Positions 8,529 through 63,556 of a stretch of 64,000 nt of DNA are shown here, one piece after another. The stretch spans positions 3,224,001 to 3,288,000 of the forward strand of contig CM059622.1 in assembly GCA_030435675.1 (NCBI GenBank), written 5' to 3'. The notes below the pieces were generated by a model. That model made no database searches and was not told where the DNA came from. It worked only from the letters and a program-made list of their open reading frames with translations. Made by a program: the position numbers and the translations under genes. How positions within the stretch are numbered: position 1 is the first letter of the stretch; each line of letters begins with the position of its first letter. The stretch comes from Steinernema hermaphroditum (Eukaryota > Nematoda > Chromadorea > Rhabditida > Steinernematidae).

Positions 8529-11500
8529 CTAGTTATGCCCATTATAGAGATCAGCCATGCAGGTGATCACTGGCGGCAGGAAATTACCGTTTGCGGTAAC
8601 ATCGATCCAGTCAATGTCAAAAGGCCCACGCCTAGCAAAGAACTGAATAATAATTGATTATCAATTCAGCGATCACAGGTGATTCCCACCTCTGTTCCGT
8701 AAAACGCCTGCATGTTGTTCGGTTCAGTAAACCGCCAGTTGGTATAATTAGGTTTAGAGTTGTCCGAAACCCATCTGAAGTTCTCCTTTCCCCATTCCCA
8801 GCCTTCGGGTATCTGAAGGCCAATTATGGAGTGTTCAATTACGTCGTTTTGCTCTTTATTCACAATCTTCACCGGCTGCGCTCCAATATCCGAACAGTGC
8901 TTGTTCATTTCTCGCTGATTTTGAGGTTTTCCTACCTAAAAGGACGAACATCATAAGGGAACGGTGAAAGTACCTACAATTTTAACTGTTCCAATGCATT
9001 TTCCAAAGACTGGATTGTATTGTAGTGTATGTGAACAGCACTTAGACGTTCCTTTTGTCAGTCTCATCTCGGGGGGACAGCACACAGGCTTCATGTCAAC
9101 CATCCCCTTAAATTCGGTTCCTTTCGCACAGCACACGTCAATTCCAGCTTCTTTCCTAATGAACACTTTTCCTTTGGGACAGCAGATTGCTTTATATCCA
9201 TCGCGTCCTCCGACCTCTTGTCCAGCTGGACAACAATTTTCCTTTTGTGGACAGCACACTTCGGCTCCTTTGTCGTCTTTTCCAGGAAAGGTGTTGCTCG
9301 GACAGCACATATCGGTTCCGTCTTGTTTTCCGATCGCCCAGCAACATTTTGACGCTTCTTTAAGAAGAGATTGACCCTGTGGGCAGCATACGTATTGATT
9401 CTCATGGATTCCTTTGAATTCCTCCCCCTTGGGACAGCAGATGGCGTCGTCTATTATACGGCCACCAACCTCTTGTCCGGCTGGACAACAGCCATCCTTT
9501 TGTGGACAGCAGAGTTCATCTCCTGTCTTGTCCTTTCCTGGGAACCTTCCTTTCGGGCAGCATACTTCTTGTCCATCTCGTTGTTTTATGGTATAGCAGC
9601 ACTGCGACGAGGTGCCCAACATCTTCTGTCCTCTCGGACAGCAGAGGTCTTTTCCTCCCAGAGCCTTCTGGAAAGCTTCGCCTTTCGGACAGCAAGTGGC
9701 CCTTCCATTCTCCTCTCCGGTGATTACTGTACCTTGTGGGCAGCAGGTCTTTTCTTGAGGACAGCATACTTCGTTTGAGTTGGCATCTTTTCCCGGGAAG
9801 GTGCCTTCCGGACAGCACACATCTCTTCCCTTCTTCTTGATGGCATAGCAGCACTGAGACGATCCAATGACTGTCCTCTTCCCTTTGGGACAGCAGATGG
9901 CCCTGTTGTCGACGCGAGCGACGACCTCTTGTCCAGCTGGACAGCAAGATCCCTTTTCTGGACAGCAGACTCCCTTGCCATCGTACGTTCCAGAGAACAT
10001 TCCGTCGGGACAGCATGAGCTCTGTCCCTTGTCAGTGATGAAACTGCAACAGCCAGCGCCTTCGGGTTTGAGCATTTGACCTTTGGGGCATTTTTCTAAA
10101 ACGGAGTTTCAATCCCTTTTTCGATGGGTTAATGTTCATTGAGATTGATCTTTCCCAGCATGTCCCTTTTCCTACCTTCCTACCCGTTTCCAACAGATGG
10201 GTCATGGACCTATTCTACTGTCTACTTTTATATCAACTCCGCATCGACGTGTGTAGCTGTCTGTTATGCTTGACTTTTAGAGTTGATCTCATGTTTAAAA
10301 TTGTCCAAAATTGTCAAAAAATTAATGGCCAAAAATTGGCTCACAATTTTGGTGTTTTGCGTTATCCTTCAATGTTTACACAAGACTGACTAAGGGGCAT
10401 CTGGAGATATGTCAAACGAAGCGGGAAAAATCCCTTTTCATTCGACGACAACAACGAGACGACAACAAGACAGACAGTTATCCTCTGTCTCAAGAGGAAA
10501 ATAATGGCTCTACAATCGACATTCACGGGCCTGAAAAGGATGTGTAAACAGAAGAAAGCCATTTTTGAGAGAATTCAAACGTGATGCCGGTCGAAATGGG
10601 ACCGGACTCAGAATGATCGATCTCTCGTCTCAAGCTCTTGAAAGTGTCTTTTCTCTCTACATCTCCTTTTACCCCTTGTCGGATCTGTCTTTTGCCTTTG
10701 TCTGAAGGCTTCACTGACATTCGCTCACGTACCTGCAGTGGTCGTTGTTGCAGCTTCTGTTGAAGTGATTGTGGTAGTTGTTTCAGTTGTCGTCGTGGAG
10801 GCTGTTGTAGGAGTAGTGGAAGTTGAAGAAGGTTGGTCCGTCTTCTCCTCCTTTTTCTTGCAGACCGCCTCACCATTCTCGACCTTTACCATGTCCTCTC
10901 CCTCGGGACAACAACTAGTCTTCTCTGGACAGCAGACTCCCTCGCCATCGTACGTTCCAGGGAATTTCCCTTCGGGACAGCAGCTTCTACGTTTGTTTCG
11001 TGTTATATAGTAGCAGCATCTGCCTCCTTCTTGCATTTTGTCCTTAGGACATCCTTCTGAAACAACGATTTGGAAGGTAAGATGAGCGGCCGAAGATTGA
11101 AATAATCATCTTTGGGGTGTGCACTACAGAAATCTAATTTTTGGTGTAGTTAAGTAATATTATAGTGCAGAATGCGCAAAAATAAAAAACTTTCCTGATG
11201 GAAACGATGGACAGGTGGACACTTCCTATTCAAATGGTTGCAAAGGTTGCATAACGAGACAGAAAAGCCTACTACAGCCCATGCGACCAGTCTTCTCTCT
11301 GTCCCCTCTAGAACGTGTGTTTTGGGGAGGAGAGGGTAGACTGGTCACACAGGAAATTTCTGACGCAAGGCCATTTTGGCTGTCATTCACCAGCTTCACT
11401 AGCTCAAGGTGTCCACTTTTCGAATGAGTTTCAGTGATAATCGCTCACGTACTTGCAATGGCCGTTGTTGCAGCTTCTGTTGAGGTGGTGGTGGTAGTCG

Positions 11501-12363
11501 GAATTGTTGTTTCTGTTGTAGTCGTTGAGGTTGTTGTAGGAGTAGTGACAAAGGGTCGTTCCTTCTTCATACAGATAGCTTCACCATTCTCGACCCTGAC
11601 CACACCCTCTCCCTCGAGACAACAACTAGTCTTCTCTGGACAGCAGACTCCCTCACCATCGTACGTTCCAGGGAACTTCCCTTCGGGACAACACATCCTG
11701 GTGCCGTTGCTGTGGGCGATGAACGGACAACATTCCGAGCTTCTCGGTTTCGGCATTTCACCTTTCGAACATTTCACTAAAATTGTAGGTTCAGTGCAGA
11801 GTACTAGTGTACATTCACCAATGCAGTCATCAGCTTGAATTGTTTTACAGTAATCCCGAACTTCCATCAACTTCCGACAGGATTCATCACTGTTTTTCGC
11901 GCAGCTCGACGCACCTTTTAGAACGTCCGATACTGTAAAGTACATCTTTGCCCTCCGCAGTGAGAGACTCTTCTTACATGGATAGGGGCCAGAGTTCGCA
12001 GGACACTCTAAGACTTCCCTTTTGTCGACGAGGTAGTAGTAGGGGAAGGCCGTGGGGGACGAGTCCTGTCTCCTCTCGAAGAAGTCGATCCTCTCGATCA
12101 GACGACACGAGTAGTTGAAGGGACCGAGGCGGGCGATCTCGTAGCCGAGACTGTCGCCCTCCACAATGATGTCCCCGCATAGTTCGGGCTTTTCATAGAT
12201 TGTGACTTCTCCGAACTTCCCGTGGACGATCGGCGACACTTTGATGTACACGTAGATGGCATCGGAGAAGACGAAGACCTGCAAAATGGATGGGATACTG
12301 TAGAGAAGGTCTACCCACCGCAAAGGAAAAGAAGACATGAAGAAACCGACCGTTCAGGTCCAT
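8529..12363 (-). CDS. Secreted PAN-like / CCP-cysteine-repeat / C-type-lectin-like protein, 861 aa
   Basis: Eight exons, all in phase: 12363-12319, 12278-11978, 11932-11819, 11776-11453, 11056-10733, 10095-8978, 8935-8690 and 8642-8529. Exon 1 is a short hydrophobic leader (MDLNGRFLHVFFSFA). Residues 16-115 form a PAN/apple-like domain (VSPIVHG, YEKPELCG, FNYSCRLI, YYYLVDKREV). Exons 4 and 5 each encode one cysteine module (CCPEGKFPGTYDGEGVCCPE) plus a Thr-rich, probably O-glycosylated linker. Exon 6 carries about four 85-residue repeats built from CCPxG pairs (CCPAGQEVGGR, AICCPKG). The last two exons form a C-type-lectin-like domain with GLQIPEGWEWG, NFRW, EPNN and DWIDV; the usual inner Cys pair is not seen, so calcium/sugar binding is uncertain. 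Presumed extracellular, possibly cuticle, mucus or immune. Plus-strand frames reading FGQQTS or GQHIS here are antisense shadows of CCP codons. Confidence 0.85.
10736..11776 (-). repeat. Tandem duplicated exons 4 and 5 of the CCP/lectin gene
   Basis: Exon 4 (11776-11453) and exon 5 (11056-10733) are both 324 nt, both phase 1 to phase 1, and both end at a GTACGTGAGCG donor. They encode the same order of CCP module followed by Thr/Ser-rich linker. Similarity continues a short way into the following introns. This is a clean internal exon duplication. Confidence 0.85.
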
Positions 12364-12635
12364 CCCGGAAGAAACGAATGTGAAAATCGAGAGTTGGCCC
12401 ACTTTGGGTCACTTCATCTCTAATGGACCCCTTAAGTTTTATGCTCCTAATGGGAAGAAGGCACTTTGTTGTCATGGACGCTGATCTAGACGCGTCGCAA
12501 GTGTATCTGTTCCAATTTAGGACACAAGTGGCGGAAGTTGTTCGAAGTCGTTAATGTTTAGTGCATGTGTAAAATTCACTTCCGTGTTCCCCGGGAATAC
12601 CACACACGAAGTTCACCATGTACTAGTCCACTTTA

Positions 12636-15238
12636 TTACGCTCTCTCAGCCTTTCCGGCCACATATCCTTGTTTTTCCTTCCTCCGACAGCTACAGTACA
12701 CCGCTATCACAACAGCAAAGAAGACAATGATGACACCGGCGATGATGAGGTAGATACCGTAATCCTTCCAGACGCTTTTCTGAGATCCAGTCTCAACTCC
12801 TTCCATCTCTTCTTGGCTTCCGTCCGACTGCTTGACTGTCGCTCGAAGGTCCAGAATCGTGACGTCAGAAGAGATATTCACCCAGACGTTTCCTCTGGTG
12901 AACGAAGGCTCCAGCACGTCTACCGTAATCCAGAACTCGGCCTTCTCCGTGTGGTCGAAGACTTCGTTGTCGATCTGCAGCTCGAGGGGAAGGTCGATGC
13001 CGTCAAAATCCTGCGACATTTCCATGTCGATGGAGCTGACGCAGACGTTCTGCGCGACGAACGTTCCCATACAGTACTCGGGGACCTGAACGTGGAAAAG
13101 TAGGCTGAGAGGAGGGGCGACGAGGACTGACCATCTCCTTGTACTTGTAGTGGAAGACGAGACGTTCGGGCTGAAGAGTGCTCCAATAGGGCTGCAGCCA
13201 GAATTGCTTGACGTCGACGGAGGTGTACGTTTCCTTGACGTGCGGTCTGACAGACGGCAGTTTCTGGAGGGCTGAAAACCAAGGATTTATTGGGTGGATT
13301 TCGAAGCCAGAGGCAGCGCTGTTTTGGTGACACTTTTGGGACTACAGTGCTGGAAATAATGATAGCCGCACTCTGTTTTGTACAGGGCTTTGTTTTGCTT
13401 AAGCTTTGTTGCTTAACGTGTTTAAAGCAGTATTTAATAGTTTTTCTCTATTACATTTTTATAACATTTTTCTCAAGGTATTGAATTACATACAAAAGAC
13501 TGTCGGAATCCATTGGAGATCCAATCAAACAATCGATCCAATCCTTCCAATCAAACACCACACCACGACCGACAGAAGAATCTTGGGTTGATACATGTCA
13601 AAAAGAAGGAACCGTTTCTAGCTCGAACAATCAAGTTTATGTAACTCAAAATATTCAACGCCTCAGTGAATACCGCTTGTTCCTAGTCCCGCATCGATCT
13701 TGGAAACAAGGCAATGAACAAAATCTAACACACTAACAATCTGTGATCACTTTGATCACACTAACAAAGGAGTGGTCAAACATGATCGACGCGAGACTAG
13801 GGACAGCGGTAAGCCACATTAGGATGAATGTGGTTAGGGCGAAAGTGAATGTCAGCTTGGTGACTAATAACTAACTATAACTAGTAACTTTTTATGAAAC
13901 GCAAGGCTGCCTTAAAAGGACAAGTTACCCGTTCCGTGCTTTCCGTGCTGACAAGTTACCCGTTCCGTACTGGGGCACTTACGGGCGAAGCCTGGTCTCT
14001 ATGGATACTGAAAGAGAATAGTCCAAGAAGGAAGGGACAACTTAAATCAAAGAGCATCTGCAAGAACTTATCCAACATGGACCAGCTGTCTGACTTGTTT
14101 TTGTGTACTAAAATTTGGTTGTAATTTTCGGTCGAGTTTAGCTCGAGAAGAACTGCAGATAAGATACAATGCCCTGTCGAACAAGGTAGATAACTTTTGA
14201 ATGTCTGCTCGCTTTATAATTCATTTTGGTTTCGTTTTCCGGATCAACGAGTCCCTCGGCGGTTTCGACCATCGGAAATTTAAGCTGCTTATTATCTTAT
14301 TATTTTTTCTAAGAAGGCACTTAGCTTTGAAAAGCTGTGTGATATGATACGTGGGGAAAAGCAGTCATCGACTAATGCGATTAAAATGCGGCTATCCTTA
14401 TGAACAGCTAAGCCTGCCAACCCGTTCTGTTTGATCAATCTATCAACGTTATCGCGTGCTCGTATAATTCGGACCACCAAGGCCGTGTTTGCAAACAGCG
14501 CTTCAGCTGATGTTTACCCTCGTTTGCACATTTACGGCTGCAGTTGTAAATTAAATGGACATTCGTTTATGTTCGGCAAATGTCACGTCAGAGGCGCTTA
14601 ATTGGATTTTGCATTTCACGCTTTTTTGATGTATTTTTCAGCAGCTACTCTTCCAGTGAAGACATCAATAAGTAGGCTCTGCAGGGCCTAAACAGAACAG
14701 CCTCAATGCACTTTCCTTTAGTGACTCATTAAGGTCCATAAAGCATGTCCTTGTGAAAGCCATAAAACCCCCTACCGTACCCCGCCAAGGACTCACCCTG
14801 TCGATAGCAGTACTCCTTGGCGGCGCCCTTCTTTTGCCCCTCGTCTTCGCAACTTTCAGGCAAGAAGTGGTCGCATAGACACTTTCCCTCCGCTCTTAGG
14901 CACACACTAAACGACCCGTTTATGTCCTTGTTTACAGCCCGTCCGTACCTGAAGCCCTTCCGGCCGCAGATTCCACAGTCGCCGCAGTCGACGACGTCTC
15001 CAGGCGGCGTCGCATAATCGCCGGCCGTCGTGGTCGCCGCGTTTACGGCTCCGTCGCAAACGACCCGCGAACACTTCCTAAATCAATCATCACCGATAGC
15101 CATCTTCGAGAATTATGAGCGATTTACGAACATCGTCTCGGCGGCGAGGACGACGCGCACATCGTCGGAAGCCTTTGAGGGACGAAGGCTCGCGAAGAGC
15201 AGAAGAAGCAGGAGTACCGCCGTCGATGAGGGCAGCAT
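12636..15238 (-). CDS. Single-pass membrane protein with Cys-rich N-terminal domain, unknown function
   Basis: A four-exon model gives 325 aa: 15238-15132, 15077-14797, 13271-13132 and 13085-12636. Exon 1 encodes a signal peptide (MLPSSTAVLLLLLLFASLRP). Exon 2 is cysteine-rich (CGDCGICGRKGF, CLCDHFLPESC) and would be extracellular. Exons 3 and 4 encode a beta-rich ectodomain, then a transmembrane helix at about residues 285-307 (YLIIAGVIIVFFAVV) and a short basic cytoplasmic tail (CSCRRKEKQ). The stop is TAA at 12638-12636. Phases of exons 2 to 4 agree at good splice sites. The first donor is less sure: GTTCGT fits the phase, while the stronger-looking GTAAAT four bases further on does not. 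The third exon is separated from the second by a 1.5-kb intron. I do not recognise the family. The start of this gene and of the lectin gene downstream suggest two secreted/surface genes in a row on the minus strand. Confidence 0.7.
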
Positions 15239-21730: not shown

Positions 21731-21734
21731 GACA

Positions 21735-27156: not shown

Positions 27157-28711
27157 CTAGTGCTTGGCGACACTCGAGCTAAGAGTGCTGGCGGCACCGA
27201 TGTCACAAACCATCTGCATGGTACCTCTTTGAGCCACTCGTCCAGCGATTGAGCGATGACCAAGTTCCCATACCTGGAAGGCCGTAAGACCGCCGTGACC
27301 AGCGGCGAAGAGGGCTTCGTAGGCAGTGCCCGAAGCTTCCTCACCATACCTGAAAATAAAGTGTACACAAGATACTAGACACACGGTAAACCGACTTCAA
27401 CTTGACAGTGTCTACGGTCTCGTTGGCGATACTTCTAACAACGGTCTTTCCGGCGTCCTCCAGTGCTATCCACACAGTTCCCATTCCCGTAATTCCTCCT
27501 CCGAGTACCGTACACGTGTCTCCAACGACTCCATCGCCAGATACACTATTCGCCACATTTTTCCCTATCGATACTCCAATGTCACCGATTTTCTCCACTG
27601 AAACACAACCTTAACTAGCACGACTACCATAACCTACACAAATATCTCGTTACTCTCGCGGCCACTTTGCTCCCCTTGTGCACATAGTGGACGCCATTTC
27701 GAACCATCGGGTTAATGTTCACCGGCTCCAGTGTCGGATCCATCTTGGACCGGATCTTCGCACCGCGATTCAAAATACGAGTGTTCGTTTTCTCGGCAGT
27801 CGTGTGGACACTGGCTGCCACATGCTGACCGCTTTTGACGAGGAAGGCGGCGATCTTGTCACTGAGGCGCTTCTTCTCCTCAGAGTCGAGCAGAGCGCCA
27901 CTTCGCACATCGGTGAAAAGGCGGAGTGTATGGACAAAGCCTTCTTCGATGTCTTTATCTATGTCCCGCGGGAGGATGATGCTGACAAACATATCTAAAT
28001 GGAGGAAATTACTCGGCTCATTTCAGTGGTCGAGGAATGAAATACAGACGGCATGCCTGTTTTCGTTGTTGCAGAGCCACATGACTTACTCGGATGATCG
28101 GGTGTCGGATTCGGCACCACATATGTGCCAAGCTCCTTCTTCAACACTGGCGTTTGGCCACTGATTAAGGGATACGCTCACGGCCCAACTTGGATGAATG
28201 CCTTCGCTTCGGCGACCATTCCTTCCTTTGCCGATACGGGACTAAGCAGCTTGAAAATCTGCAAAGAAGTCGGAGCCGTTGGGGCGGACGTTTGATCGCA
28301 TTCGACAACGATTAGCTGCACGCCGTCCGGGATGAAGTAGATCAGATCAGCTTCCTCAGATCCCGCCGACTCCAGATGCTCCCGAAGCTCTCCTTTTACC
28401 TAAAACGGGAATATGACAAATCGTTCCATTCGTTCCACCTTGTACTCTTCTGTCCCTCGCTCGGGGTCGTGTTCCTCGAAGTGCTTCAGTCTCTGCGTCA
28501 TCTTCTCCTTCGCCGCCGCCATGCTCTCGTAGATTTCGCTATTCTTCGCGTTCGGGGAAAGCTCAGCTTCGGCAATCAGGCTCAGGCTTCGTTCGTACAT
28601 CGCCTTCGTGCCTTCTGGATCGTTCTCCTCGTCAAAGACGAGTCCCTGATCGCAGCAGGCGTGCGCCACCGACAGGAGCGTCTCCGACTCAACATTACGG
28701 TTCGAGTGCAT
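27157..28711 (-). pseudogene. Spartin (SPG20) paralogue A with a premature stop
   Basis: Same five-exon structure as copy B: 28711-28439, 28399-28090, 27994-27638, 27597-27396 and 27349-27157. Exon 1 is a MIT domain (CDQGLVFDEENDPEG, AMYERSLSLIAEAELS). Exons 3 to 5 are the senescence/plant-associated domain (FVHTLRLFTDVRSGALL, KIGDIGVSIGKNVANSV, YGEEASGTAYEALFAAGHG). In exon 2 a TGG codon of copy B is TGA here (28180-28178, one base change), cutting the protein before the second domain. No other disabling change was found, so the event is recent, or a truncated MIT-only product is used. The change also creates a GTGAGC donor-like site, but splicing from it to the next exon would shift the frame. 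Spartin acts on lipid droplets, mitochondria and ESCRT-related steps. Confidence 0.75.
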
Positions 28712-29195
28712 CTGAAAATGGAATGAAACCAGACAGTAGATCCAGGCATAACAGAGGACACCCCTTAGATGACGCGAATCTACGTAGAACGACTACCTCC
28801 CCATCTGTTACTTCCCTCAAACGTAAGTCAACACAAGAGAAGATACGGGCGGAGGACAGTGCATCAACAAACACACATTATATGTACAAACACGCTGCGC
28901 ACAGGCAATACATGACGTAACCGGAGGAAGATCAATACATAACCGTTACGATCATCAATTCAACAGCAACATCCAGTTTCTCTTCTTTTTTTGTCTCTCT
29001 TTTTTCCAGTCGATGCTACCGAAAGAAATCGAAGTGCTTTACATGTGTTAGTAAAGATGAAGAAATCTCTTTTAATTTGGCGATTTCCAGCTATAACTTT
29101 CTACTGTACATAGGCAAGTAAAGGTGAGGCCGGTAATCTCGCAGCAGTTCGTAAACAACAGCTTGGGGAATATGAGACAATAAAACAATGTTTTG

Positions 29196-30827
29196 TCAAG
29201 CTCTTTTGGACTTTTCCATGATGCTCGATTTGGGAGTGCTCTGGGCGCTGCCACCGATTCCGTGAACCATTTCAATGGCACCTTTGCGAGCCATACGTCC
29301 AGCGACGGAACGGGGGCCGAGGTCCCATACTTGGAAGGCCGTAAGACCGCCATGACCAGCGGCGAACAGGGCTTTATGAGCTGTGGTGGAAGCTTCGTCA
29401 CCATATCTGAAGTAATAACATGTACGCAGAATGTAGGAAGTAAACTGACTTCAATTGGACCGTGTCCACGGTCTCGTTGGCGATACTTTTGAAAACGGTC
29501 TTTCCGGCATCCTCCAGTGCTATCCACACAGTGCTGACACCTGCAATGCCACCTCCCAGAACTGCGCAAGTGTCTCCGACGATTCCACGGTTGTTCGGAT
29601 CACCAGATACACGGTTCGCCACGCTTCTCCCGATTGACACTCCAATGTCACCGATCTTATCTACTGAAAACATTCGCTCACTACGGTAACAAAACTATCG
29701 TAACGTATACGCAAATATCTCGTTACTCTAGCGGCCACCTTGCTTCCCTTGTGCACATAGTGGACACCATTCCGGACCATCGGGTTGATGTTCACCGGCT
29801 CCACTGTCGGATCCATCTTGGAGCGGATATGCGCTCCACGAACCGAGATGTGGTTGTTGGTCTTCTCAGCTGTGAAGTGGACCCCGGCGGCGATGCGCTC
29901 TCCACTTTTGACAAGGAAGGCGGCGATCTTGTCACTGAGACGCTTCTTCTCCTCAGAGTCGAGCAGAGCGCCACTTCGCACTTCGGTGAAAAGGCGGAGT
30001 GTATGGACAAAGCCTTCCTCGATATCTTTATCTATGTCCCGCGGGAGGATGATGCTGACAAACATATCTAAATGGAGGAAATTACTCGGCTCATTTCAGT
30101 GGTCGAGGAATGAAATACAGACGGCATGCCTGTTTTCGTTGTTGCAGAGCCACATGACTTACTCGGATGATCGGGTGTCGGATTCGGCACCACATATGTG
30201 CCAAGCTCCTTCTTCAACACTGGCGTTTGGCCACTGATTAAGGGATACGCCCACGGCCCAACTTGGATGAATGCCTTCGCTTCGGTGACCATTCCTTCCT
30301 TTGCCGGTACGGGACTAAGCAGCTTGAAAATCTGCAAAGAAGTCGGAGCCGTTGGGGCGGACGTTTGATCGCCTTCGACAACGATTAGCTGCACGCCGTC
30401 CGGGATGAAGTAGATCAGATCAGCTTCCTCAGATCCCGCCGACTCCAGATGCTCCCGAAGCTCTCCTTTTACCTAAAGCGGGAATATGACAAATCGTTCC
30501 ATTCGTTCCATGCACCTTGTCCTCCTCCACTCGTTTTACTTCTTCGTTCAACTCCAAGGCGCGCTTCGTCCGACGCTGGACGCCGTGTTCCTCGAAGTGC
30601 TTCAGCCTCTGCATCATGTTCTCCTTCGCCGCCACCATGCTCTTGTAGAGTTCACTGTTCTTCACGTTCGGGAAAAGTTCGGCTTCGGAAATCAGGCTGA
30701 GGCTTCGTTCGTACATTGTCTTTGCGCCTTCTGGATCGTTCTCCTCGTCAAAGACGAGGCCCTGGTCGCAGCAGGCGTACGCCTCCGACAGGAGCGTCTC
30801 TGATTCGACGTCGAGATCAGGGTACAT
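29196..30827 (-). CDS. Spartin (SPG20) homologue, copy B, intact
   Basis: Five exons: 30827-30516, 30472-30163, 30067-29711, 29663-29450 and 29406-29196, in phase, 467 aa. Exon 1 holds the N-terminal MIT domain (ACCDQGLVFDEENDPEGA, MYERSLSLISEAELF), which in spartin binds the ESCRT-III protein IST1. The middle exon (EADLIYFIPDGVQLIVVE) matches the linker region. Exons 3 to 5 form the C-terminal senescence domain (DKIGDIGVSIGRSVANRV, VSTVWIALEDAGKTVF, YGDEASTTAHKALFAAG). The protein is shorter than human spartin but has both domains in order. It is likely the functional member of the pair. It lies 484 bp upstream of copy A and 375 bp downstream of the UQCR11-like gene, all on one strand. Confidence 0.88.
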
Positions 30828-31202
30828 CTGAATGAGATGCCGTGTCAGTCTCGAAACTTTAAAATCTAGACACGCTTCGCAGGTCTCGCACAGAAGGGCG
30901 CATACCCTAGACTAGACAGTTATTAGACGGAAAACGTCTAAACGACAGGGCTGCAGACAGCTTGTCACTTTCTTCGAATGCATATGGGTCAATGAGGAAT
31001 ATTTCTCCAACACAAATAAAATAGAATCTAACAGGGACCAATTGCTTGACAGCATGAACATGCTAAACTCCAGCAGCAAGAGATAAGAGCATCAAACTCC
31101 TACACACCTTCGCGAAACAAGGAATACGCATCACAGAATGAAACGTTTATTCTACAGCTATTAGAACGCACAGAGACGAGCGGTGCCAACTAGAGGAGCA
31201 GT

Positions 31203-34938: not shown

Positions 34939-37900
34939 ATGAGCTTATCGCAGCTTAAAGAGAGCGAAGTGGTTGACAAGGTTAAGATCCTGGTGGAGAC
35001 GCTGGATGAGCAGGAAGGCGCCGTTTTCCTCGACGACTCCGAACGCCAGAAATTCCATGTGCACGTCATCGACGTATGTTTTGTGTTCATCGCTTTCTCA
35101 TGATCTCTTCCTTTACAGAGCCTCCGGAATAGTTCGACCTACGTGATCTCGCAAGATGTGTCAAGGAGAGTCGTTGTCCGCGACTTTGACCCGGAATGCG
35201 AGGAGTTTACCTTGGAAGTGGTATCAGAACAATGGGAGAATGCGCTTTTCCACCTCGTGAACAATTTCTTCGAGGCACAGGCGGCTTTCTACCACATTGT
35301 GCGACGTCCGGAGATACAGTCCGTTCTCCAACTGCCCAGCACCATTTTGCTGAGAAGAAAATTCTAGTCTGTCCTGTGTCTTTTTGAAGATGTTATGGTT
35401 ATTGTTGCAGCCCGAACGACAACGACATTCCTGTCGATCATTTCTACATCGGCAATCAGTGTAATCCGTTCTACTTCACGCCTCACATCAAATTAACGAC
35501 AGCAGAGACAGACCTGGAAGCGCTGAACCGGAAAAGTAACAATAACCGAAACCGCCATGGAATCCTCGCCGACTTCGAACATGACCGCGATCGGCTTACG
35601 CTCCGATTCGGTTACGCGCAAAAGAGAGGTGAGGGAAGAATTCTCCGAGAAACTTTCATTTGTTTGTAGATTCCGGATTCGTAAGGTCCTGCGTTCATGC
35701 GTGCGTGCAGTACAGCTCCATACGCCGCGTCATCGTCAATTGGGAAAGCTTGCGTGAAAGGAATGCTCGTCGCGTGCAGATCTGTATATATATGAATGCA
35801 CCACTGGAGATCCGTCGAGCGAATCAACGGCCGACAGGCCATTTCGGGCCGTTTGATCGGTTCTTAACTTGGGACGACCAGAGAGCACCAGCGAAAACGA
35901 TAGCCGACTGTCCTGTATTGATGGTGTGCTTTCAGAGCGTCGATGTAAGCACGCTGTCATTGGAACATTTAATGGTACATCCTTTTACAGAAGGAGCAGC
36001 TCTATAATCTACTGAGTCGTCTTCAAGGGCGTTGTAAGCTGGTGCTCGAATTCTGCACCGTACGCTGCGAGACGGCCCAGATTCCGCCTCCAAGAGTTTC
36101 CGAGCCGATGATCAATCGAAGTTCGGCATATCAAATCGAAAGAACGGGATCCTACGCGCTGGCCTATCTCATTGAAGCGCTGTCTTCGCGAGGAGCCATA
36201 GTAAATGATCATCTCCTGAAGAACAAGGAAGCGAGAGACGCATTCGTGAATAGAATCGTCAGCTGGTTTTACGAGAATCCCGGTGTTACGCTGACAGTGC
36301 TCGAGCGCCTCCTGAACACTATCGATGAGAAGATGGAAATTCGCAATCTCATGCGTGTCCTTGAGAGGCTCCACGAGAAGGCCCACCTCGATCGGCATTG
36401 GTTACTGATGGATGAAGAAGAGAACAAGAAGAATGGCTTGCAAAGAGTCAGGAAGATCGTGATCACGCCGACCAGAAGACTTTATGTCGTTCCCGAGCTG
36501 ATGATGGGAAATCGGTTCTTGCGGACATACAACCAAGGAGGGCACGAAACACTGCGAATCCAGTTCAGAGACGACGACGGCAGACCATTGCGGAGTAACA
36601 AGTGTGGCCAGTACCTCATCGGCGTGACCGTCCGGAACACGCTGAGAGATGGGATCTTTGTGGCTGGACACCGGTACAAGTACATGGGATCGTCTAATTC
36701 GCAGCTTCGTGACAACGGATGCTATTTGTTCAACGCGGACGATGACACCGTAGTGCAGAGGATACGCGAAGAATTTGGACGGTTCGATACGGACAACATT
36801 CCCAAGTTCATGTCACGCTTTGGACAGTGTTTTACGCAAGCTCGGGTAAGGATCGTCATATGTTAAATACGGTTAAAATGAAAACACTTTCAGAAAATCG
36901 ACGTGAAACTCGAACGCGCCATGTATGCCATCAAGAGAGATGTCATTGGAGGTGATGATCAGAACTACGAGCCCTATATCTTCTCTGATGGTGTTGGCAG
37001 TGTTTCACTTGAATATGCTACGCAAATATCGACTGATTTGAATCTCCGAGGATGCGTTCCGTCAGTGTACCAGGCATGGTCTACCTTCCACTTTTAACTC
37101 ACAATAGAATATCGATATTCTAGATTCGCTTCCGCGGAATGAAAGGAATCATCTGCATTGATCCTTACCTCGATAGTGTGAAGCAGTTTTTGACCGAAAA
37201 CAGTGACACTGACCAAGGATCTCCTGGTATTGGTGTCGACATGGTCCTTCGCCACTCTCAAGAGAAATTTCAAGCGCCCCGAAACGACAACATCGAAGTC
37301 GTCAAATATAGTTCGCCCGTTCCGCTTTCTCTGAATCGGCCAATGATTAACATCATGGACCAAGTCACTGCCAAGCAAAACCACGCAACGCACGTACGCC
37401 TCTGCCGACGGATCCACGAGCTTCTTGGGATTCAACTTGATGCTCTTGGCAAATCTCTCAACGATGAAATAAAAGCGCGCGAGCGGCTTAGCGAGTTTCC
37501 ACGACGCATTGACATATGCTCTTTGTCCCCTGAGAAGGGATTTCACGTCACTGATGAACCATTTTTCCGCTCCCTCCTCCAGAGCTCTGTACAGTACACT
37601 CTCGGTAAGGTGGGCGTGTCCGAACGCCGAATGAAAATTCCAATTTCAGGAAAAATCCGCAGCAAGATCCAGATAAACGTTCTACCAAATCAGGGCCGCA
37701 TGCTGTTTGGTGTGGTTGACGAATCCGGGCTTCTGCAATATGGCCAAATTTTCTGTCAGCTCACATCGAACATTTTCATGAAAATGCCGGGACCGTCCGT
37801 TAGCAAGCACGTCTTGGAAGGGCCTGTGCTCATGACAAAGAATCCAGCAATCGTGGCCAGTGACGTCCGAATGTTTCAAGCGGTCAACATACCCGAGCTG

Positions 37901-40307
37901 CATCATCTGGTTGACGTCGTCGTGTTTCCTCGTTATGGGCCACGTCCTCACAGTGACGAAATGGCCGGATCGGATCTGGATGGCGACGAATATGCCGTCA
38001 TATGGGACACGCAGCTATTCTTCAACCACAACGAGGAAGCCTTCATTTTCCCTAAACCAGTACTGAAGTTCGACGACCCTGAAGATCAGCGAGATGTGGT
38101 GAGCTCTGACTGCCCAAGCATCAACTTCTTAACTTATTCTCGTGTAGACGACGAAGATGATCGATTTCTACGTGGACTACATCCAACAAGGCACTATTGG
38201 AGCGGTTGCCACGGCTTTCCTCGCCCAGTCAGATCAGTACGGGATCAGCAGTGAGCTGTGCCTGGAGATAGCGCGAAAACACTCACTTGCTGTTGATTTC
38301 CCGAAGACCGGAAAGGCACCCGAACAGCTAACGCGCCGTTCAAGGGATGGAATGCCACCGGAGCAGCCGGATCGTTATCCGGACTTTATGGAACGCAACA
38401 CGGCACCGGCGTATATCAGTGGAAGTTTAAATGGGCAGCTTTACAGGTGTGCTTGACTTTCGCTATTGCATCAACTTTTTAAACGTTTAGACGGGCACGG
38501 CACATCGACGCCATCATCACGCAGGCTCGCGATCTGCAGACGTCCTCACCCATAGTATGCGACCCTGATTTTGAGCATGAGGGCTTTGAGCAGTATCTGC
38601 AACAGGCCACCATTGATGCTAACCGTTATAACTCCAGTTTAAGTGTAGGACTGTCAGCGTGCGGTACGGGCTTACCGTTGTTACTTTTAGGCTCTACTGG
38701 ACAACTACGGGATTGCCGATGAAGCTCAGGCCTTCACTGGAATGATAACGAAGTGCCGCAATCGCATCAGCGACAAAGACAACGACGACATGTCCCTGTT
38801 CAACACGAACTACGTCATCAAGCAGCGTGTCAATCGGATTTTCAAGAATGCCCGACTCGAATTCTTTGAAGAATTTGGTAGCTACGAAAGTTGCACAGTC
38901 GAAGACGCAGTCCGGCCCAGCAGAAAATTCCAGGCTGCCCCGGATGACCACGAATTGGACCGTCGCTACTGCAAAACGCCCACGGAAGCGATGAAGCAGA
39001 AAGCCAGTGCCTACTATAAAGTGTGCTATTACCTCGCGAATAAGACCGACAGGCGCTTTTTGTCGTTCGCCTGGGTTTGTTGGGATGTATTGGCAGAAGT
39101 CAAGAAGGACAAGTACATCAAGAAAACCATTGAAGCACACAAATTTGACAACATTCCGCGGCACTCAAGACTGCATGAATATATCATGGGATACGTTGAA
39201 GATCAAGCGATAGCGAGCGAGTTCCACTGTCACAAGAAGCATATTAGGAAGTACCAGGCGTTCGCTGCGGTTTATGCTAGAGCATTTCAAGGTGAGATGA
39301 GCGTCGAATACACACTTAGTTGATGGACGTAATTTAGGAGTTGACGAATTGTTCTTCATTCTGAGAAGATGGGGCGAGCAGCATCAGCTCTTCAATTACG
39401 AATTCACCCCGGAATGCCTGAACGCCCTTCTCATTCTGCATGGAATCAACGATTTTCCCGAGATTCGACGTGACATCTCTACTGAATGGCTTCAGAAAGT
39501 AGATTCAGTTTATTTGGATTGGAGTATCATCCACACTCTCTTAGGTCGATGCTGATAATCCGCTACCAGTAAAGAAGGACCTGAAGACCCGAATCGGTGG
39601 CCTGGGAGCCATCTTACTCCAGTTCTTCAAATTCCTTGGATCAAGTGATTTCAAGAAGTCCCGCTTCATCCCACTCTCAGTTCTCGGCTGCATGGAATTC
39701 TTGCCAATTTCGATCTGCGAGCCTGTATCTCAGGTACCACTGCTCTTATACAAGATGGTCACCTCATTCAAATACTTTAGGCCGCTAACGACACGTACTA
39801 CACCGTTGTGTTCACTGGTACCTTTGAGAGTCTACCAGCGCTTGAAGAAATTAGCGCAGATACAGAGAAACGCCGTCTGCACGAGCTGGACCCTTTCACC
39901 ATCGAGCTGCCTGCGTCGAAGTTGGGCGAGCTCCCGTTTATCGAATCCAAAGTAAAGAAGCTAAGCGGTGTGCACCACGTGACAATTCGGAAAGTGAGGA
40001 TTGACCACTATAGTACGTACATCTTCTCAGTAGATACCTAATCTAAAAGGTTTTAGATGACACAGTGCGCTTGATCGTATCCGCTACGGGCACCCTCGCA
40101 TCTCTCGAGAAATTGCGAGAATTGGTCTTCGTGAAGTCACATGTTAATTGTCCAGGAAGTGAAGTTCTATCCAAGGCGCGATTGATGGCTGACATGGTGT
40201 ATGAGAAGCTCTCTTCAAAGTCAGACGACTACACTGACCATGACAGCAATTTTGAGATCACCAACGCGAAGATCGCCTCAATCGGGAGCAGCAGGCAATT
40301 GTCGTGA
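34939..40307 (+). CDS. RNA-dependent RNA polymerase of the EGO-1/RRF family
   Basis: Fifteen exons, all in phase: 34939-35073, 35119-35366, 35411-35628, 35670-35944, 35991-36845, 36894-37073, 37124-37604, 37650-38098, 38148-38446, 38491-38644, 38691-39291, 39338-39498, 39545-39733, 39781-40012 and 40057-40307. The product is about 1575 aa, close to C. elegans EGO-1/RRF-1. The catalytic loop DLDGDE is at 37973-37990 (residue about 906) within the GSDLDGDEYAVIWD block. Other conserved blocks are FSDGVGSVS, RFRGMKGII, GPVLMTKNPAIVASDVR, FPRYGPRPHSDEMAGSDL and LAVDFPKTG. In nematodes these enzymes copy target RNAs into secondary 22G-type small RNAs for RNAi and germline silencing. The intron after exon 6 has a GC donor (CAG/GCATGG). 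No break was found, so the gene looks functional. Confidence 0.95.
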
Positions 40308-54230: not shown

Positions 54231-54235
54231 TAATC

Positions 54236-55872: not shown

Positions 55873-56109
55873 GAAGTTGGCGCGAGAACACCACATGCAT
55901 GTAGATAACATTCTCATCCGCGAAACCAAAGCACTTTATTATCCAACTAATTATTCGTACATTGTGAATAAATAAGTATGTAAGTAGTGAACACATCATA
56001 TTGAACGTCGGGACGCAAACAACTCGATTCTCGGGACTCGATCAACGCACGCATACAGCCGAGAGCGAAAGATAGGAAATGTACCGTGGTTCTCTTCGCG
56101 CACCTGTTC

Positions 56110-56912
56110 CTCTCGAGCAGAGTTGTCGGGTTCGGGTTTTCGGGTCGGGTTTTTCGGGTTTTCGGGTCGGGTTTGGGTGTCGGTTTCGGTTTTTCGGGTC
56201 GGGTACCCGAAAGTTTCGGTTTCGGTTTCGGTTTCGGGTTCGGTTTCGGGTACCCGAAAATTTCGGTTTCGGGTTCGGTTTCGGGTCGGGTACCCGAACT
56301 TCCCGGTTGGATTTCCCTGATTTTCGGTGTTTTGGAACTGTCGAACCGCGATTTTATTTTTTCTAACCCCATAAAAGCGATCAGTCACAGCGCGGCGAGA
56401 CCCAGAACCTATATTAGCGCTTTGAGATATCGAGATCTCCAGAAAAAGTAGGATATTTCGTACGTTGATAGATCGTGCTAGTGCAAACTTTGGGCGTAAG
56501 CGTGGCGCCACAACGGTACCGAGGTGTCGGTCTGCGCTTATGACGTGAACATGAGTGGGATGCACCGACGACAAGTTCATTAACTTTGTAACCTTTGTAG
56601 ACAGTTTGACGTCCACCTTTTCTGAGAGTTTCACGTTGATACAGTTTAGTCTTAAACTGAAGGACGCACGAAAAGGACTGCGGGAAAAAAAGGAAAAAAA
56701 ATGTCCCCAACTTCAAAAACAACTTCGGGTTTTCGGTTTCGGTTTCGGTTTTTTCGGTTTCGGTTTCGGTTTTTTCGGGTTCGGTTTCGGTTTCGGGTAC
56801 CCGAAAATTTCGGTTTCGGGTTCGGGTTCGGTTTCGGTTTCGGTTTTTTCGGGTTCGGTTTCGGTTTCGGGTACCCGAACTTTCGGGTACCCGGACAACT
56901 CTGCTCTCGAGA
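56110..56912. repeat. Element with short inverted ends and two TTCGGN hexamer arrays
   Basis: The ends are an imperfect inverted repeat of about 20 bp (TCTCGAGCAGAGTTGTCGGG at 56111-56130 and its counterpart at 56890-56912, CCGGACAACTCTGCTCTCGA). Just inside each end is an array of TTCGGT/TTCGGG hexamers interrupted by GGGTACCCGAA palindromes (56125-56320 and 56725-56890), both in the same orientation. The 400 bp between is not repetitive. Frames reading PKPNPKPK or FRFRFR across the arrays are by-products of the repeat. Confidence 0.75.
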
Positions 56913-57718: not shown

Positions 57719-58147
57719 AGGGCCATTTATAGTCTGCGCGACACAAAACCCCATTTTTGTGTCGCTTAGCTTGTCTACGCGTGACTATGTAGGCAAAACC
57801 AAATAAAACTGCACAGTGATGATGCTTTCGGATCGGGATATAAAATCATCAGCATAAAAAATTTTTAGGTTGACTTTGCGTAGGTTAACTTAACTGTCGC
57901 TTAGCTTCAACTTGACTGTCGCGCAGCTGTGTCGCGTAGCTAAGCGACAGTCAAGTTAAAGCTAAGCGACAGTTAAGTTAACCTACATGTCATGTCCCAC
58001 AATTTTTTTCTTTTGATGGTTTGATAGCCCGATCCGAAAGCATCATGACTGTGCAGTTTTATTTGGTTTTGCATATATAGTCACGCGTAGACAAGCTAAG
58101 CGACACAAAAAAGGGGGTTTTGTGTCGCGCAGACTATAAATGGCCCT
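57719..58147. mobile_element. Palindromic MITE, copy 1 (PIF/Harbinger-like)
   Basis: A 429-bp element with long inverted repeats (outer ends AGGGCCATTTATAGTCTGCG and its complement) and near-complete self-complementarity, flanked by TTA at 57716-57718 and 58148-58150. A 3-bp TWA duplication is the mark of PIF/Harbinger transposons. It has no coding capacity. The centre is a palindrome built on GTCGCTTAGC repeats. Confidence 0.88.
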
Positions 58148-58611: not shown

Positions 58612-58922
58612 ACATTCTGCTCAGAGTCAATCGACGACGGATCCGTTTGATTATCCTGAAACGGTCGAATAAGTCATTTGATGTGAGAGACGGCGGTGGC
58701 GCGATCACTAACAGACAGCGACAGACAAACGGCGCGTTTCGTCATCACCACTGCATCGTCGCGATGCACTTTTCGGCGCACAAGACGCCATTAGGCACCG
58801 ATCGCGAAAACGGCGTATTTGACTGTCACCGATCGGACCAGCGCCGACCAAATCAAAAGACTTATTTGAACGTTTCAGGATAATCAAACGGAACCGTCGT
58901 CGATTGATTCTGAGCAGAATAT
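58612..58922. repeat. Foldback repeat with about 71-bp arms
   Basis: 58612-58682 and 58851-58922 are inverted copies (TTCTGCTCAGA.TCAATCGACGACGG.TCCGTTTGATTATCCTGAAACG) with about ten percent mismatch. The loop of 168 bp carries no gene. No target duplication could be fixed. Confidence 0.8.
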
Positions 58923-58929
58923 CCACTTT

Positions 58930-60498
58930 CTGGTGAGTTCTTATCCTTAAGTCACTGTTACGCTGAAATTTTTCCGAGGGCAGGACTGTCCGGCCCTTCC
59001 CACCCTCTCCCCTCTGTATTGTCTGGCAAAGATGGCGAGAGTAACCGCCCTGTACGGAAGCACAACGAAAAGTAAAAGCCGCATCTTTCTGATCGTTTTG
59101 AGATGCCGACAGACATGCTCGTCAAGAGGGTTCTAAATTCTTATGTGACCGTTTTTGCATGACACGACAATTCCAACCCGTTTTCCCACCTCCATCTGTT
59201 CCACGTAACAGAAAACTTTTATAGAAGAAGCCTGGCATGGGATTATTAACAGAAGCGCTTCCCGATCGCCTTGGTCTTCTGGAAGTTATCCAAAGTGAAG
59301 AACTTTATGTGCGCCAAGCACACCGTGAGTATACCATCAAACCCTCGATAGATCTTCGTAAACGACCACAGCGCATCAATTACAAAATGCATACGAAGGA
59401 ACGTTCGTTCCGTCGTCGCTCACTACGACACGCACAAGGAGAATCCCGTGGAATACCTTCAAAAACTGGCTGTACATTGAAGCAACAAATGGATCGTGCC
59501 ACAGCCTGCCAAAGATGATGAACATTTGTAAGTTTCCCTGTGCCCTCGTGCTTTTAATTGTTGTTTCTACCTTGGTCTCTGTTCCAGTGAGACAGCTTCG
59601 GCATCCTTTTATCGGGGTGGACATGATGTCGCACGTCGAATTCGTGGTTATAGTTACAGAAGCTGTCTCAGTGGAGCAGAGATGACCATAAGCTGTAACG
59701 CTCGTGGTGCTACAGTAGCTCTCGTCGAATTCCCGAAGTTAAAGATCTGGTTCGCCGTCGACTGCGGCTAGAACATCGTATCGAGAGTTTCCATCAGCAT
59801 TGACCTATCCAGAGTCAAATGTCCTGGCGGCCAAACAGAAATGTCTCTCTTTGGAACGCTAAAGACGAAGTCAAGGACCCCCTCTACAGCAAAGGATCTC
59901 GAAGCGACATCGGAAACGGCGTCTCTGCGACCAGCCTCGACACATTCTTCAAATTCTTTTATGCCATCCAATTTCCGTCATTTTTCTTGTTCCCATTCGT
60001 TACTATGTTAGTCGTCCTTGTATTGGTTGTATCATTTCGTTTCATCACTTCTCTAACCCGAAATTTCTTCCCCCATTTTCTCCTTATGTTCCTTCTTCCC
60101 CGCTTTCGACCCGGGAGTATTATCGAACGATGATTCCCCCTTCAAAACCTCCTTAATTATTCATAGACCCGCTCCCACGTGAGTCATCGTCTGGCGCCGC
60201 GCCGCCCCTCTCCCTCCGCACTCTTGCTGCCTAAGTATATTAATAGGGTGTGTAGGGAAAATAAATTAGTTATGATCCAAGAGGTAAAAATCGCTGTGCT
60301 CCGCGTTTCGCCCGCTCCACACGGATGCGACAGTGTTCCACAACTCCGCCGTCCACGCCGCCAGCCGATCTGAAGATGGGTTCGCTGTGTTCCGCCGTCT
60401 CCGGGATCAGCCCCTCGCCTCTCCTTGGAAAAAAAGAAACATGAATATGTACGCCGAATATCGACGAAAATCTTTCCTTCCTGTGGCAACTGTATCTA
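58930..60498. other. No gene recognised
   Basis: Scattered frames of 60-104 codons (59237-60133 and 60179-60584) lack a consistent splice pattern or domain. Some segments look protein-like, so a decayed gene is possible but cannot be named. Confidence 0.45.
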
Positions 60499-60592
60499 AC
60501 AAGGGAACCTTCCGAAGTGTCCTGCTCGGATCGAGCTGGAAATTGACACACAGGTAGGCCTTCTTTAGTGTATGTCATCCCCAAAAGGGCAC

Positions 60593-60760
60593 CTGCTTAT
60601 ACGCATACCAGGTCATGTAAACACCCTTCGCAAGTTACGGCCAAACAACTAGCCAATAGCCAACTTCGGCAACGATTGAGAGATGGTGTGTATGGCCGAA
60701 TCGGGTAGTATCTCGGCTGCCCTTTTTGGGGTTCGGGTTCGCTCCCCTCCCAGCCCATAT
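60593..60760 (+). repeat. tRNA-related (SINE-like) repeat, copy 2
   Basis: Contains an A-box-like TGGCCGAATCGGG at about 60693 and a B-box-like GGTTCGCTCCC at about 60737, spaced as in a tRNA gene, followed by CATATTTTTC. It shares its framework with 47785-47955. It lies in the left arm of the foldback. Confidence 0.55.
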
Positions 60761-60840
60761 TTTTCTTATCGCTTCTTGAACATATTTAAGTTTGTTTTTG
60801 TCTTACTAAAAGGTAGTAATGAAATTTTTTTAAAACAAAT

Positions 60841-61080
60841 TTGAACATTACGGCAATACAGATAAGTGCTAACCGATTCCAAAATATGATACGGTATGCA
60901 TGGCATCACGCTGGATTTATTGACGAACACCCTCCTTCTTTCGAAACGCCGGAACATTTTTGCTTCAATTTCGACGAAGGGCATCAATGCATGTGTTCCA
61001 AAATGCCCGTTCTTCGCTGTGCTCATTGTGCAGGATTCTTGTGTGTTACGCATCTTGTTGATGTTGAACATAATTGTTAA
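60841..61080 (+). pseudogene. C-terminal Cys/His zinc-binding fragment of a transposase-like protein
   Basis: The frame of 79 codons in the loop of the foldback reads RYAWHHAGFIDEHPPSFETP, then CSKMPVLRCAHCAGFLCVTH and HNC. The C-X2-C, C-X2-H and H-X-C arrangement looks like a treble-clef or cross-brace metal site. Similar tails close proteins of several nematode DNA transposons; this is a recollection of pattern, not a match I could run. The first residues come from the inverted repeat arm. No catalytic domain is present, so it is an internal deletion derivative. Confidence 0.45.
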
Positions 61081-61293
61081 GGAACACCGTTGTTATAAAA
61101 AAATTTGTTTAAAAAAATTTCATTACTACCTTTTAGTAAGACAAAAACAAACTTAAATATGTTCAAGAAGCGAGAAGAAAAATATGGGTATAAGCAGGTG
61201 CCCTTTTGGGGATGACATACACTAAAGAAGGCCTACCTGTGTGTCAATTTCGAGCTCGATCCGAGCAGGACACTTCGGAAGGTTCCCTTGTAA

Positions 61294-61721
61294 AGGCCCA
61301 TTTATAGTCTGCGCGACACAAAACCCCCTTTTTGTGTCGCTTATCTTGTCTACGCGTGACTATTTACACAAAACCAAATAAAACTGCACAGTCATGATGC
61401 TTTTGGACCGGGCCATCAAACTATCAAAAGAAAATATTTTTGGGACTTGCCATGTAGGTTAACTTAACTGTCGCTTAGCTTTAACTTGACTGTCGCTTAC
61501 CTACGCGACACAGCTGCGCGACAGTCAAGTTGAAGCTAAGCGACAGTTAAGTTAACCTACGCAAAGTCAACCTAAAAATTTTTTATGCTGATGATTTTAT
61601 ATCCCGATCCGAAAGCATCATCACTGTGCAGTTTTATTTGGTTTTGCGTACATAGTCACGCGTAGACAAGCTAAGCGACACAAAAAAGGGGTTTTGTGTC
61701 GCGCAGACTATAAATGGCCCT
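61294..61721. mobile_element. Palindromic MITE, copy 2 (PIF/Harbinger-like)
   Basis: A 428-bp copy of the element at 57719, in opposite orientation, flanked by TAA at 61291-61293 and 61722-61724. One end has AGGCCC in place of AGGGCC. It lies about 200 bp upstream of the lectin-like gene start, and its right end supplies the ATG of a spurious upstream frame. Confidence 0.88.
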
Positions 61722-61918
61722 TAAGTCGAAAAAGGTGCTTCGCATCCGTTATGTTTCATGTTCCGCTCAGGCCCATAAACGAAAGTATAACGACCCATAT
61801 TCGGCTGTTGCTGGGGACAAAAGAACCTCCTTTGGCCGTTGCCGAGGACATCCTGCTTCCTCTCCTCATTCGAAGGCGTTTCTTGTGCCTGTGCGGCCTC
61901 GACTCCAGATTCTCAACT

Positions 61919-63556
61919 ATGGCTATCTGGAAGCCTTTTCTCCTCCTTGTCTGGGTCCTACCGGTTAGTTCATGGCTGAGATGCAGGTGTTAGGGTTGAA
62001 GCGTTTAGACCACTGAATCTTTTGATCCCATCTATCGCTACAGCTTCATAGGAAGCAAAGTTGCGGGACCGATCTACAGAGAGTTTCAGGCGAGAAATCT
62101 CGATGAATGTGGCAGGATGGCCCACCGCAATAAAGCCATCGCCCTCACTCACACCACCAACGGGACTGGCGAGTATTGTGGTTTGATCACGAAGTTCGTC
62201 TCGATTGAGGAGAACTTGGACCCTTTTGTGCACTACTATCTCCTGGATAAAAGGATCACCGAATCGAAGCAATGTCCGAGCGGACGAACGGGTGAGGCAA
62301 TTCTTTATATTTTAAGCATCCCCTATATACAAACGGAGAACCGACGGGTCCGATGGTCTGTTTGTGTGTTTTTTTCCGTGCGCACGGGGAAAACACCCAC
62401 ACAATAAACCCAAATGGAAACCGAACCCGACAGCGCACGCTTACAAACGTTTACCGCCGGTAGGCTACTGGTGTCTTGCCGCCCTAGAGATTCGAACGAT
62501 GCAGCAGTCAAAGAAATTTGGAATGTTCGGAAGACGTCATAGAGCCCTGTTTTCAGTTCGACAGATTCTCAAGGGGCTAAGTCAATGTGAGGAGGAGGAC
62601 AAAGTGTGCATGGAGTTGCACAAAATCGTGGGTTTCTTGTCACGCCACCCGAAGAACGTATTCCATTTCTAGAAGCGCCACTGTGACGCGGTCAACGTGC
62701 TGAACGTTGACTGTCACTGCCCCCCGCATCAGAAGGTTATCGACGACAATGGAAAAGATCGCTGCTCCGCAGTCATCACAAGGAAAGACGGCACAGAAGA
62801 GTACTGTCCCGCGCTCCATGCGGTTTGGAAGGACAAATACGGAGAATTCTGCTGCGGGAAGAACAGTGGATCTTGCTGTCGGCGTGACACGTTTTGTTGC
62901 CGAAGAGAAGAAAGGATCGAAGCAGATGGCGGGAAGCCTTACTGCTGCCCTGATGGGACGACTTTCCGAGGAAGACACGATGGAGAAGCTGTGTGCTGTC
63001 CTCCGGAAATGGACCGAGTGGAGGGAAGCAGATTCTGCTGTCCAAAAGGTTTTGTGTACAGCGAAGCCTTTAAAAGATGTATCGGCGCCATTGAATTCGT
63101 AAGTGTTCGTCCTCCCTTACTCACTCAAATCTCCTCTTTAGGGTGAGGAAATGCCAGAAAACCAGAAGGAGATGAAAAGGATATGCACGGACGTGAAAAG
63201 CTTCCCGGTCAAGATCGAAAACGAGGAGCAGAACAAAGCCTTACGGAGCATTATTCAACCGTTCGGTGGAATAATCGGTCTCCACATTCCGGAAGGCCGA
63301 GAATGGGGCAGAAACAATTTCCGATGGTCTGTGGATGGCAGCGAGCCGACATTCACAAAATGGGCAGCTGGCGATCCGAATAACCTGTTTGTGGGACAAG
63401 CACCAGAGGTAGCATAACACAACACGTAGCAACTCCTTTCTCCCTTTTTAGATCTTTACCTTACATAAATCTGATAGGAACTGGATCGATGTCAACTACT
63501 TATGGAAGGTTAGCCACGCCTACTGCATGGCCAGCGGATACGACAGCCGTGGATGA
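61919..63556 (+). CDS. Secreted PAN-like / CCP-repeat / C-type-lectin-like protein, 398 aa
   Basis: Six exons in phase: 61919-61963, 62009-62291, 62557-62627, 62673-63098, 63142-63408 and 63452-63556. Exon 1 is a 15-codon leader (MAIWKPFLLLVWVLP), exactly as in the gene at 8529-12363. Exon 2 is the PAN-like domain (YREFQARNLDECGRMAH, GEYCGLITKF, HYYLLDKRITES). Exon 3 (RQILKGLSQCEEEDKVC) matches the short helical exon of the larger paralogue. Exon 4 has one to two CCP modules (KPYCCPDGTTFRG, AVCCPPEMDR, SRFCCPKGF, FKRCIGAIEF). Exons 5 and 6 form the lectin-like domain (IGLHIPEGREWGRNNFRW, DPNN, NWIDV, YCMASGYDSRG) with only two obvious Cys. It has no Thr-rich linker. Intron positions and phases match the larger paralogue, so both descend from one gene. 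Role presumed extracellular. Confidence 0.85.

Follow-up and report, generated by a model that had tools for sequence, protein, structure and literature searches.

The 64,000-nucleotide window analysed here (contig CM059622.1, positions 3,224,001 to 3,288,000 of the Steinernema hermaphroditum assembly GCA_030435675.1) carries two genes, A near its start and B near its end, each of which joins a PAN-like N-terminal domain, repeats built on cysteine pairs (CC) and a C-type-lectin-like end. We have little doubt about the architecture of the family to which A and B belong and about the shuffling of modules among its members. That the products are secreted multi-module recognition lectins, diversified by this exchange, is a functional reading of the sequences towards which we lean. 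According to literature excerpts, the nematode S. hermaphroditum kills insects, has a specific bacterial symbiont and can be studied with established genetic tools.

Gene models and domain architecture

The exons of both genes were read from the sequence and spliced at GT-AG sites. Gene A (minus strand, 12363-8529) comprises eight exons and encodes 861 amino acids, gene B (plus strand, 61919-63556) six exons and 398 amino acids; all introns are of the GT-AG type and each reading frame closes with one terminal stop. In window positions, the exons are as follows.

12319..12363, minus: A exon 1, 15-codon hydrophobic leader (sequence reading, splicing)
11978..12278, minus: A exon 2, N-terminal PAN-like domain, phase-1 end (splicing, profile mapping; fold predicted from a paralog)
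11819..11932, minus: A exon 3, short helical cysteine exon (intron 11818-11777 as in deposited P0004)
11453..11776, minus: A exon 4, first CC-repeat block and first Thr-rich linker (splicing)
10733..11056, minus: A exon 5, second CC-repeat block and second Thr-rich linker (splicing)
8978..10095, minus: A exon 6, main CCPxG array, 85-residue period (splicing, CC spacing)
8690..8935, minus: A exon 7, first part of C-type-lectin-like domain, EPN motif
8529..8642, minus: A exon 8, end of C-type-lectin-like domain, W-I-D replacing W-N-D, stop
61919..61963, plus: B exon 1, 15-codon hydrophobic leader
62009..62291, plus: B exon 2, N-terminal PAN-like domain, phase-1 end
62557..62627, plus: B exon 3, short helical cysteine exon
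62673..63098, plus: B exon 4, short CC-repeat region
63142..63408, plus: B exon 5, first part of C-type-lectin-like domain, DPN motif
63452..63556, plus: B exon 6, end of C-type-lectin-like domain, W-I-D replacing W-N-D, stop

The original prediction of two full genes of one architecture is borne out, as both could be spliced without internal stops and their proteins match each other at a blastp E of 2e-43. Common to A and B are the predicted hydrophobic leader exon (45 nt, 15 codons, phase-0 end), a PAN-like N-terminal exon with a phase-1 end, a short helical exon (114 nt in A, 71 nt in B, followed by an intron of phase 1 and 0, respectively), CCPxG repeats, and a C-type-lectin-like end divided by a phase-0 intron. 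The span 8529-63556, originally treated as one unit, is not one, since other genes sit between A and B. Both N-termini are hydrophobic, and secretion is predicted from this leader. Gene A can also be read as seven exons and 875 amino acids if the 42-nt in-frame GT-AG stretch 11818-11777 is retained; in the deposited relative P0004 this stretch is an intron, which gives the eight-exon, 861-residue form with the helical stretch as an exon of its own, and because the 42 nt are open in frame, the longer form may also exist.

For the N-terminal domain, the predicted model of a paralog adopts a PAN/apple fold. As VIA on the whole B model had returned the lectin domain only, the N-terminal domain was folded as a second construct; its top five Foldseek rows (CD40, NELL1, decoy receptor, EMR2 and NELL2) had root-mean-square deviations above 11 and were disbelieved. 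PAN/apple domains have four to six strictly conserved core cysteines according to the text available from PMC9249922. Two of four core cysteines are kept in the present family: the span of the PAN-like fold holds only residues 49 and 73 in A and 49 and 72 in B, the next invariant cysteine being residue 104 in B, and across nine aligned members 15 cysteine columns are invariant. The likeness to the PAN and apple domains of plasminogen and HGF thus lies in the predicted fold and in one helix-to-strand cysteine pair 23-24 residues apart, whereas the inner pair is absent and no Pfam or PDB sequence match links the two. Pfam scans of A, B, ten relatives and two alignments found no matching PAN model at E up to 1 (10 in one scan) and no family above its cut-off for either the N-terminal domain or the repeats; weak matches (New_glue, DUF5481, YjgF and others) were dismissed as due to chance or composition. 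A PDB sequence search with the alignment of N-terminal domain and repeats returned nothing relevant. The model thus suggests a PAN-type fold that is too divergent for Pfam.

Between the two folded ends, A carries 33 CC pairs (mean 6.9 and maximum 14 in 2000 residue shuffles), 81 of its 861 residues being cysteine, while B has 25 cysteines and six pairs (shuffle mean 1.4, maximum 6). This agrees with the variable number of CCPxG modules originally noted, as do the Thr-rich linkers of the larger gene, of which there are two (residues 230-262, 64% Thr plus Ser, and 337-371, 69%). The CC pairs in A's main array follow the spacing series 17-7-17-17-14-13, summing to 85 residues, which recurs in P0004 and, with a last step of 12, in P0005 and P0006; the repeat region of B is a short, irregular version of it. 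Galaxins and granulins likewise have regularly spaced CC pairs in extracellular proteins; galaxin repeats, however, span about 30 residues in Acropora in the sections of PMC2726143 at hand, as opposed to the series found here. Only one of 12 proteins (A, B and P0001-P0010) matched the Pfam family Galaxin_repeat (PF24748), namely P0005 at E 0.041 and 14.2 bits against a cut-off of 28, and profile matches to granulin chains were weak (E 2.8 and 4.8). No family was found for the regular di-cysteine stalk in these searches.

At the C-terminus, the predicted model of B shows a C-type-lectin fold. Against PF00059, A and B stay below the cut-off, and among the ten relatives P0007 passes it (33 bits versus 22.6) and P0006 falls below it (19.1). 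Likeness to the domain of CD23 and the mannose receptor extends to the fold, the outer cysteines, the IGL core and, in many members, an EPN/QPD-type motif; besides the sub-threshold scores of A and B, the differences are W-x-D in place of W-N-D and, by eye, the lack of the inner disulphide pair in the aligned members. In C-type lectins EPN is the mannose-type and QPD the galactose-type motif, and W-N-D supplies calcium ligands. The binding-loop motif of the 23 family loci described below reads EPN in 13, DPN in two, QPD in two and EPD in one, the five others or unread ones including a gene at 15.34 Mb of contig C3 whose loop reads QPE by eye. We therefore speak of a predicted C-type-lectin-like domain, with putative sugar binding, that lacks the full canonical EPN/QPD plus WND set.

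Proteins uniting PAN-type and C-type-lectin domains are already in print. As given in the sections of PMC5297725 at hand, class IV nematode proteins consist of one or two C-type-lectin-like domains with one or two CW/PAN-3 domains and number 16 in Caenorhabditis elegans; the table has no such protein for its other six species. The present family shares with class IV the combination of the two predicted folds and the size of the gene families; compared by description only, it differs in the absence of a Pfam PAN/CW (CW/PAN-3) sequence match, in the two PAN core cysteines and in the di-cysteine stalk between the domains. The combination with CCP repeats was originally taken to be undescribed; its union of PAN-type and lectin domains is of a kind already known in nematodes, and novelty is limited to the variant with the di-cysteine stalk, on which no paper was recognised in our literature search, as far as the texts were accessible.

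The family and the exchange of its modules

Six-frame searches of the genome gave at least 73 matches with B, at least 66 with a piece of P0007 and at least 84 with a piece of P0009 as query (E 0.001), and at least 26 with one N-terminal domain (E up to 0.1). When N-terminal and lectin profiles were mapped in the window and in 20 fetched stretches (the overlapping L001-L008 being left out), the two domains followed each other in this order on the same strand at no fewer than 23 loci, A and B included: 17 lie on contig C2 within 0.74 Mb (2.94-3.68 Mb), four elsewhere on C2, one on C4 and one on C3. Open frames with 2-35 CC pairs, counted without a shuffle control, lie between the domains at 22 of the 23, the locus at 3.632 Mb having none. 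Seven further N-terminal matches have no lectin match paired with them; they lie in the window (one), in L009, L018 and L020 (one per stretch) and in L027 (three), and for those near stretch ends the lectin end may fall outside the stretch. On C4 at about 3.67-4.13 Mb, a further expanded group shares this N-terminal domain and the CC repeats; in L027, the sole stretch of this group that was read, no lectin domain was found. With B as query, splice-aware alignment to L024 and L025 recovered the deposited proteins P0001 and P0002 without a single residue differing, and at L017 and L023 it yielded open genes, so that spliced genes are available for six of the 23 loci (A, B and four paralogs).

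The evidence for exchange comes from mosaics at the DNA level. In 100-base bins, B and its paralog at 3.603 Mb are 97-100% identical over 61.8-62.8 kb, introns 1-3 included, 91-95% at 62.8-63.1 kb, and 63-89% at 63.1-63.5 kb, where the lectin exons lie; synonymous divergence rises from 0.01-0.05 ahead of the lectin domain to 0.50 inside it (Fisher P 4e-12). The gene at 3.649 Mb shares its front with the 3.670 Mb gene (95.4% over 439 bp) and its back with the 3.667 Mb gene (94.7% over 992 bp), while blastn found only 59 bp at 80% and 169 bp at 72% for the converse parts; the respective protein identities are 99% and 59%, and 48% and 97%, with the 59% computed from 32 aligned residues. For A, the gene most like the front is the one at 3.220 Mb (96.0% identity over 926 bp), that most like the main array is the one at 3.207 Mb (97.0% over 1425 bp), and the lectin end reaches 77-79% to the 3.217 and 3.207 Mb genes. 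A is a patchwork, and several copies are mosaics, with near-identical fronts joined to divergent lectin ends and the reverse. Since such reciprocal patterns go beyond what rate differences alone can yield, recombination or gene conversion, in one direction or the other, is needed. Family-wide, N-terminal and lectin identities correlate at 0.57 (247 of 253 pairs, six being dropped for too few aligned columns), which on its own is no proof of exchange, so that the claim rests on the mosaics. At the B locus, about 1.2 kb (60500-61721) separates two blocks that adjoin each other at the 3.603 Mb paralog, so that either the B locus probably gained this segment or the paralog lost it.

The window also holds a truncated third copy that was absent from the original prediction and beyond which, within the window, no repeat or lectin exon was found (7823-8209).

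8165..8209, minus: truncated third copy, 15-codon leader exon
7823..8123, minus: truncated third copy, N-terminal PAN-like exon, 94% DNA identity to that of A

The deposited protein closest to A is P0003 (QR680_008072, S. hermaphroditum; 94% identity over 96% of the 875-residue form), which joins most of A to the truncated third copy and a neighbouring gene. Other deposited models of the family also look fused: P0004-P0006 hold two family units each and P0009 starts with a chemoreceptor. The Pfam families above cut-off elsewhere in these proteins, DUF1759 in P0006 and chemoreceptor families in P0009, are taken for fused neighbours. B and the 3.603 Mb paralog were absent from the matches of two of the protein searches, and both may be missing from, or fused within, the deposited annotation. 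Named matches in the three protein searches all came from S. hermaphroditum (2 of 2, 7 of 8 and 3 of 3, the remaining match, P0010, being weak). We do not claim that the family is restricted to this lineage, given limited search coverage and sensitivity; the second search scored only the 7980 candidates sharing most words with the query, and the third failed to recover P0008, itself a row of its query alignment.

Possible functions

In the reading towards which we lean, the protein would leave the cell, its cysteine pairs would bond into a stiff rod, the PAN-like end might hold or oligomerise the protein, and the lectin head may bind glycans or proteins, either microbial or from the insect host. 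Swapping heads and fronts among genes would keep the frame constant and renew the binding heads, as expected under changing targets; the heads are maintained and varied, with sugar binding uncertain.

Several observations weigh against this reading. Three stretches in the lectin domain of the B model have a predicted local distance difference test score (pLDDT) below 50, and the second lectin exons read have W-x-D instead of W-N-D, whereby sugar binding is perhaps lost or altered. P0003 skips the helical exon of A and lacks its last lectin exon, and thus conflicts with our model in two exons. Among five B-type genes (ten pairs) the ratio of nonsynonymous to synonymous rates (dN/dS) of the lectin domain is 0.33-0.51, indicating purifying selection; it ranges from 0.28 to 0.95 in the loop subregion, and positive selection, sought by dN/dS in the lectin domain of these five genes, left no clear sign. 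The N-terminal domain exceeds 1 both for B versus the 3.603 Mb paralog (4 versus 1 changes) and for the 5.467 versus 5.479 Mb genes (8 versus 1), each with few changes. Furthermore, tandem clusters undergo exchange even without selection for diversity.

In one rival reading, most of the loci are tandem duplicates in decay and share no selected function. The truncated third copy, the seven unpaired N-terminal matches and the extensive exchange among copies would fit such decay, but all six spliced genes have open coding sequence, and the lectin dN/dS and the 15 cysteine columns invariant in nine aligned members also speak against it; we find it very improbable. The cysteine-rich stalk, in turn, brought about the initial view of a tough surface-coat polymer, in which the proteins would build up a layer outside the cells (surface coat, cuticle, eggshell or sheath), with cross-linked di-cysteine repeats, glycosylated Thr linkers and a lectin head as anchor. 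The very high cysteine content of A, its regular 85-residue CC spacing and its Thr-rich linkers argue for this, as does the association of di-cysteine repeat proteins such as galaxins with organic skeletons (PMC2726143, in the sections at hand). It is not obvious, however, why a polymer would need lectin heads that vary; paralogs have swapped heads and fronts, the repeat region is short in B and its B-type relatives, and the single Galaxin_repeat match lies far under the cut-off. Of the initial interpretation, the lectin fold and the PAN-like fold predicted for a paralog stand, and the polymer is kept as a less likely rival.

A narrower form of the recognition-lectin reading, which we rate as possible if on the unlikely side, is that the proteins are released by the infective stage to act on the host, where they would hide glycans from the insect or block its pattern recognition and melanisation. 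In the accessible text of PMC6513111, lectins are among the most abundant Pfam domains of the S. feltiae secreted products and, as a class, also belong to the core shared with S. carpocapsae; in the searchable text of the S. carpocapsae genome paper (PMC5120318), "lectin" occurs only in a reference title. According to the available sections of PMC5297725, lectin genes are many in all Steinernema species examined and few in Heterorhabditis bacteriophora, and C-type lectins abound in free-living nematodes too; as free-living species are thus lectin-rich and an insect-killing Heterorhabditis is lectin-poor, there is no simple tie to insect killing.

Extending the favoured reading of diversified recognition lectins, one may tentatively, and against considerable doubt, picture a system of constant frame and variable head, in which lectin heads and stalks would form a library on the chromosome, be recombined by ectopic exchange in the cluster and provide many specificities toward symbiont, competitor or host surfaces, possibly varying between wild strains. 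The compact cluster of shuffled lectin-like genes offers concrete candidates for telling the symbiont from other bacteria or for handling insect immunity, and several of its genes at a time could be removed in one deletion.

Other features of the window

Between A and B, an RNA-dependent RNA polymerase gene lies on the plus strand (Pfam RdRP, 9.3e-27 and 4.9e-63 in two open frames); the scan covered 35973-38254, and further frames run to about 40.0 kb. A gene with a Senescence domain (PF06911) is tandemly duplicated on the minus strand at 27624-28792 and 29661-30911 (5e-9 and 2.7e-8), the frames being alike by eye. At 1485-3375, a mariner-type transposase frame (Transposase_1, 9.5e-29, minus) overlaps the start of a reverse-transcriptase frame (RVT_1, 1.3e-15, plus). 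Some 750 bp with TTTCGG-type tandem repeats at 56122-56886 have long open frames on both strands, and 22-base repeats of the type AGCTAAGCGACAGTCAAGTTAA occur at 57887-57981, with similar words by eye at about 61500-61700.

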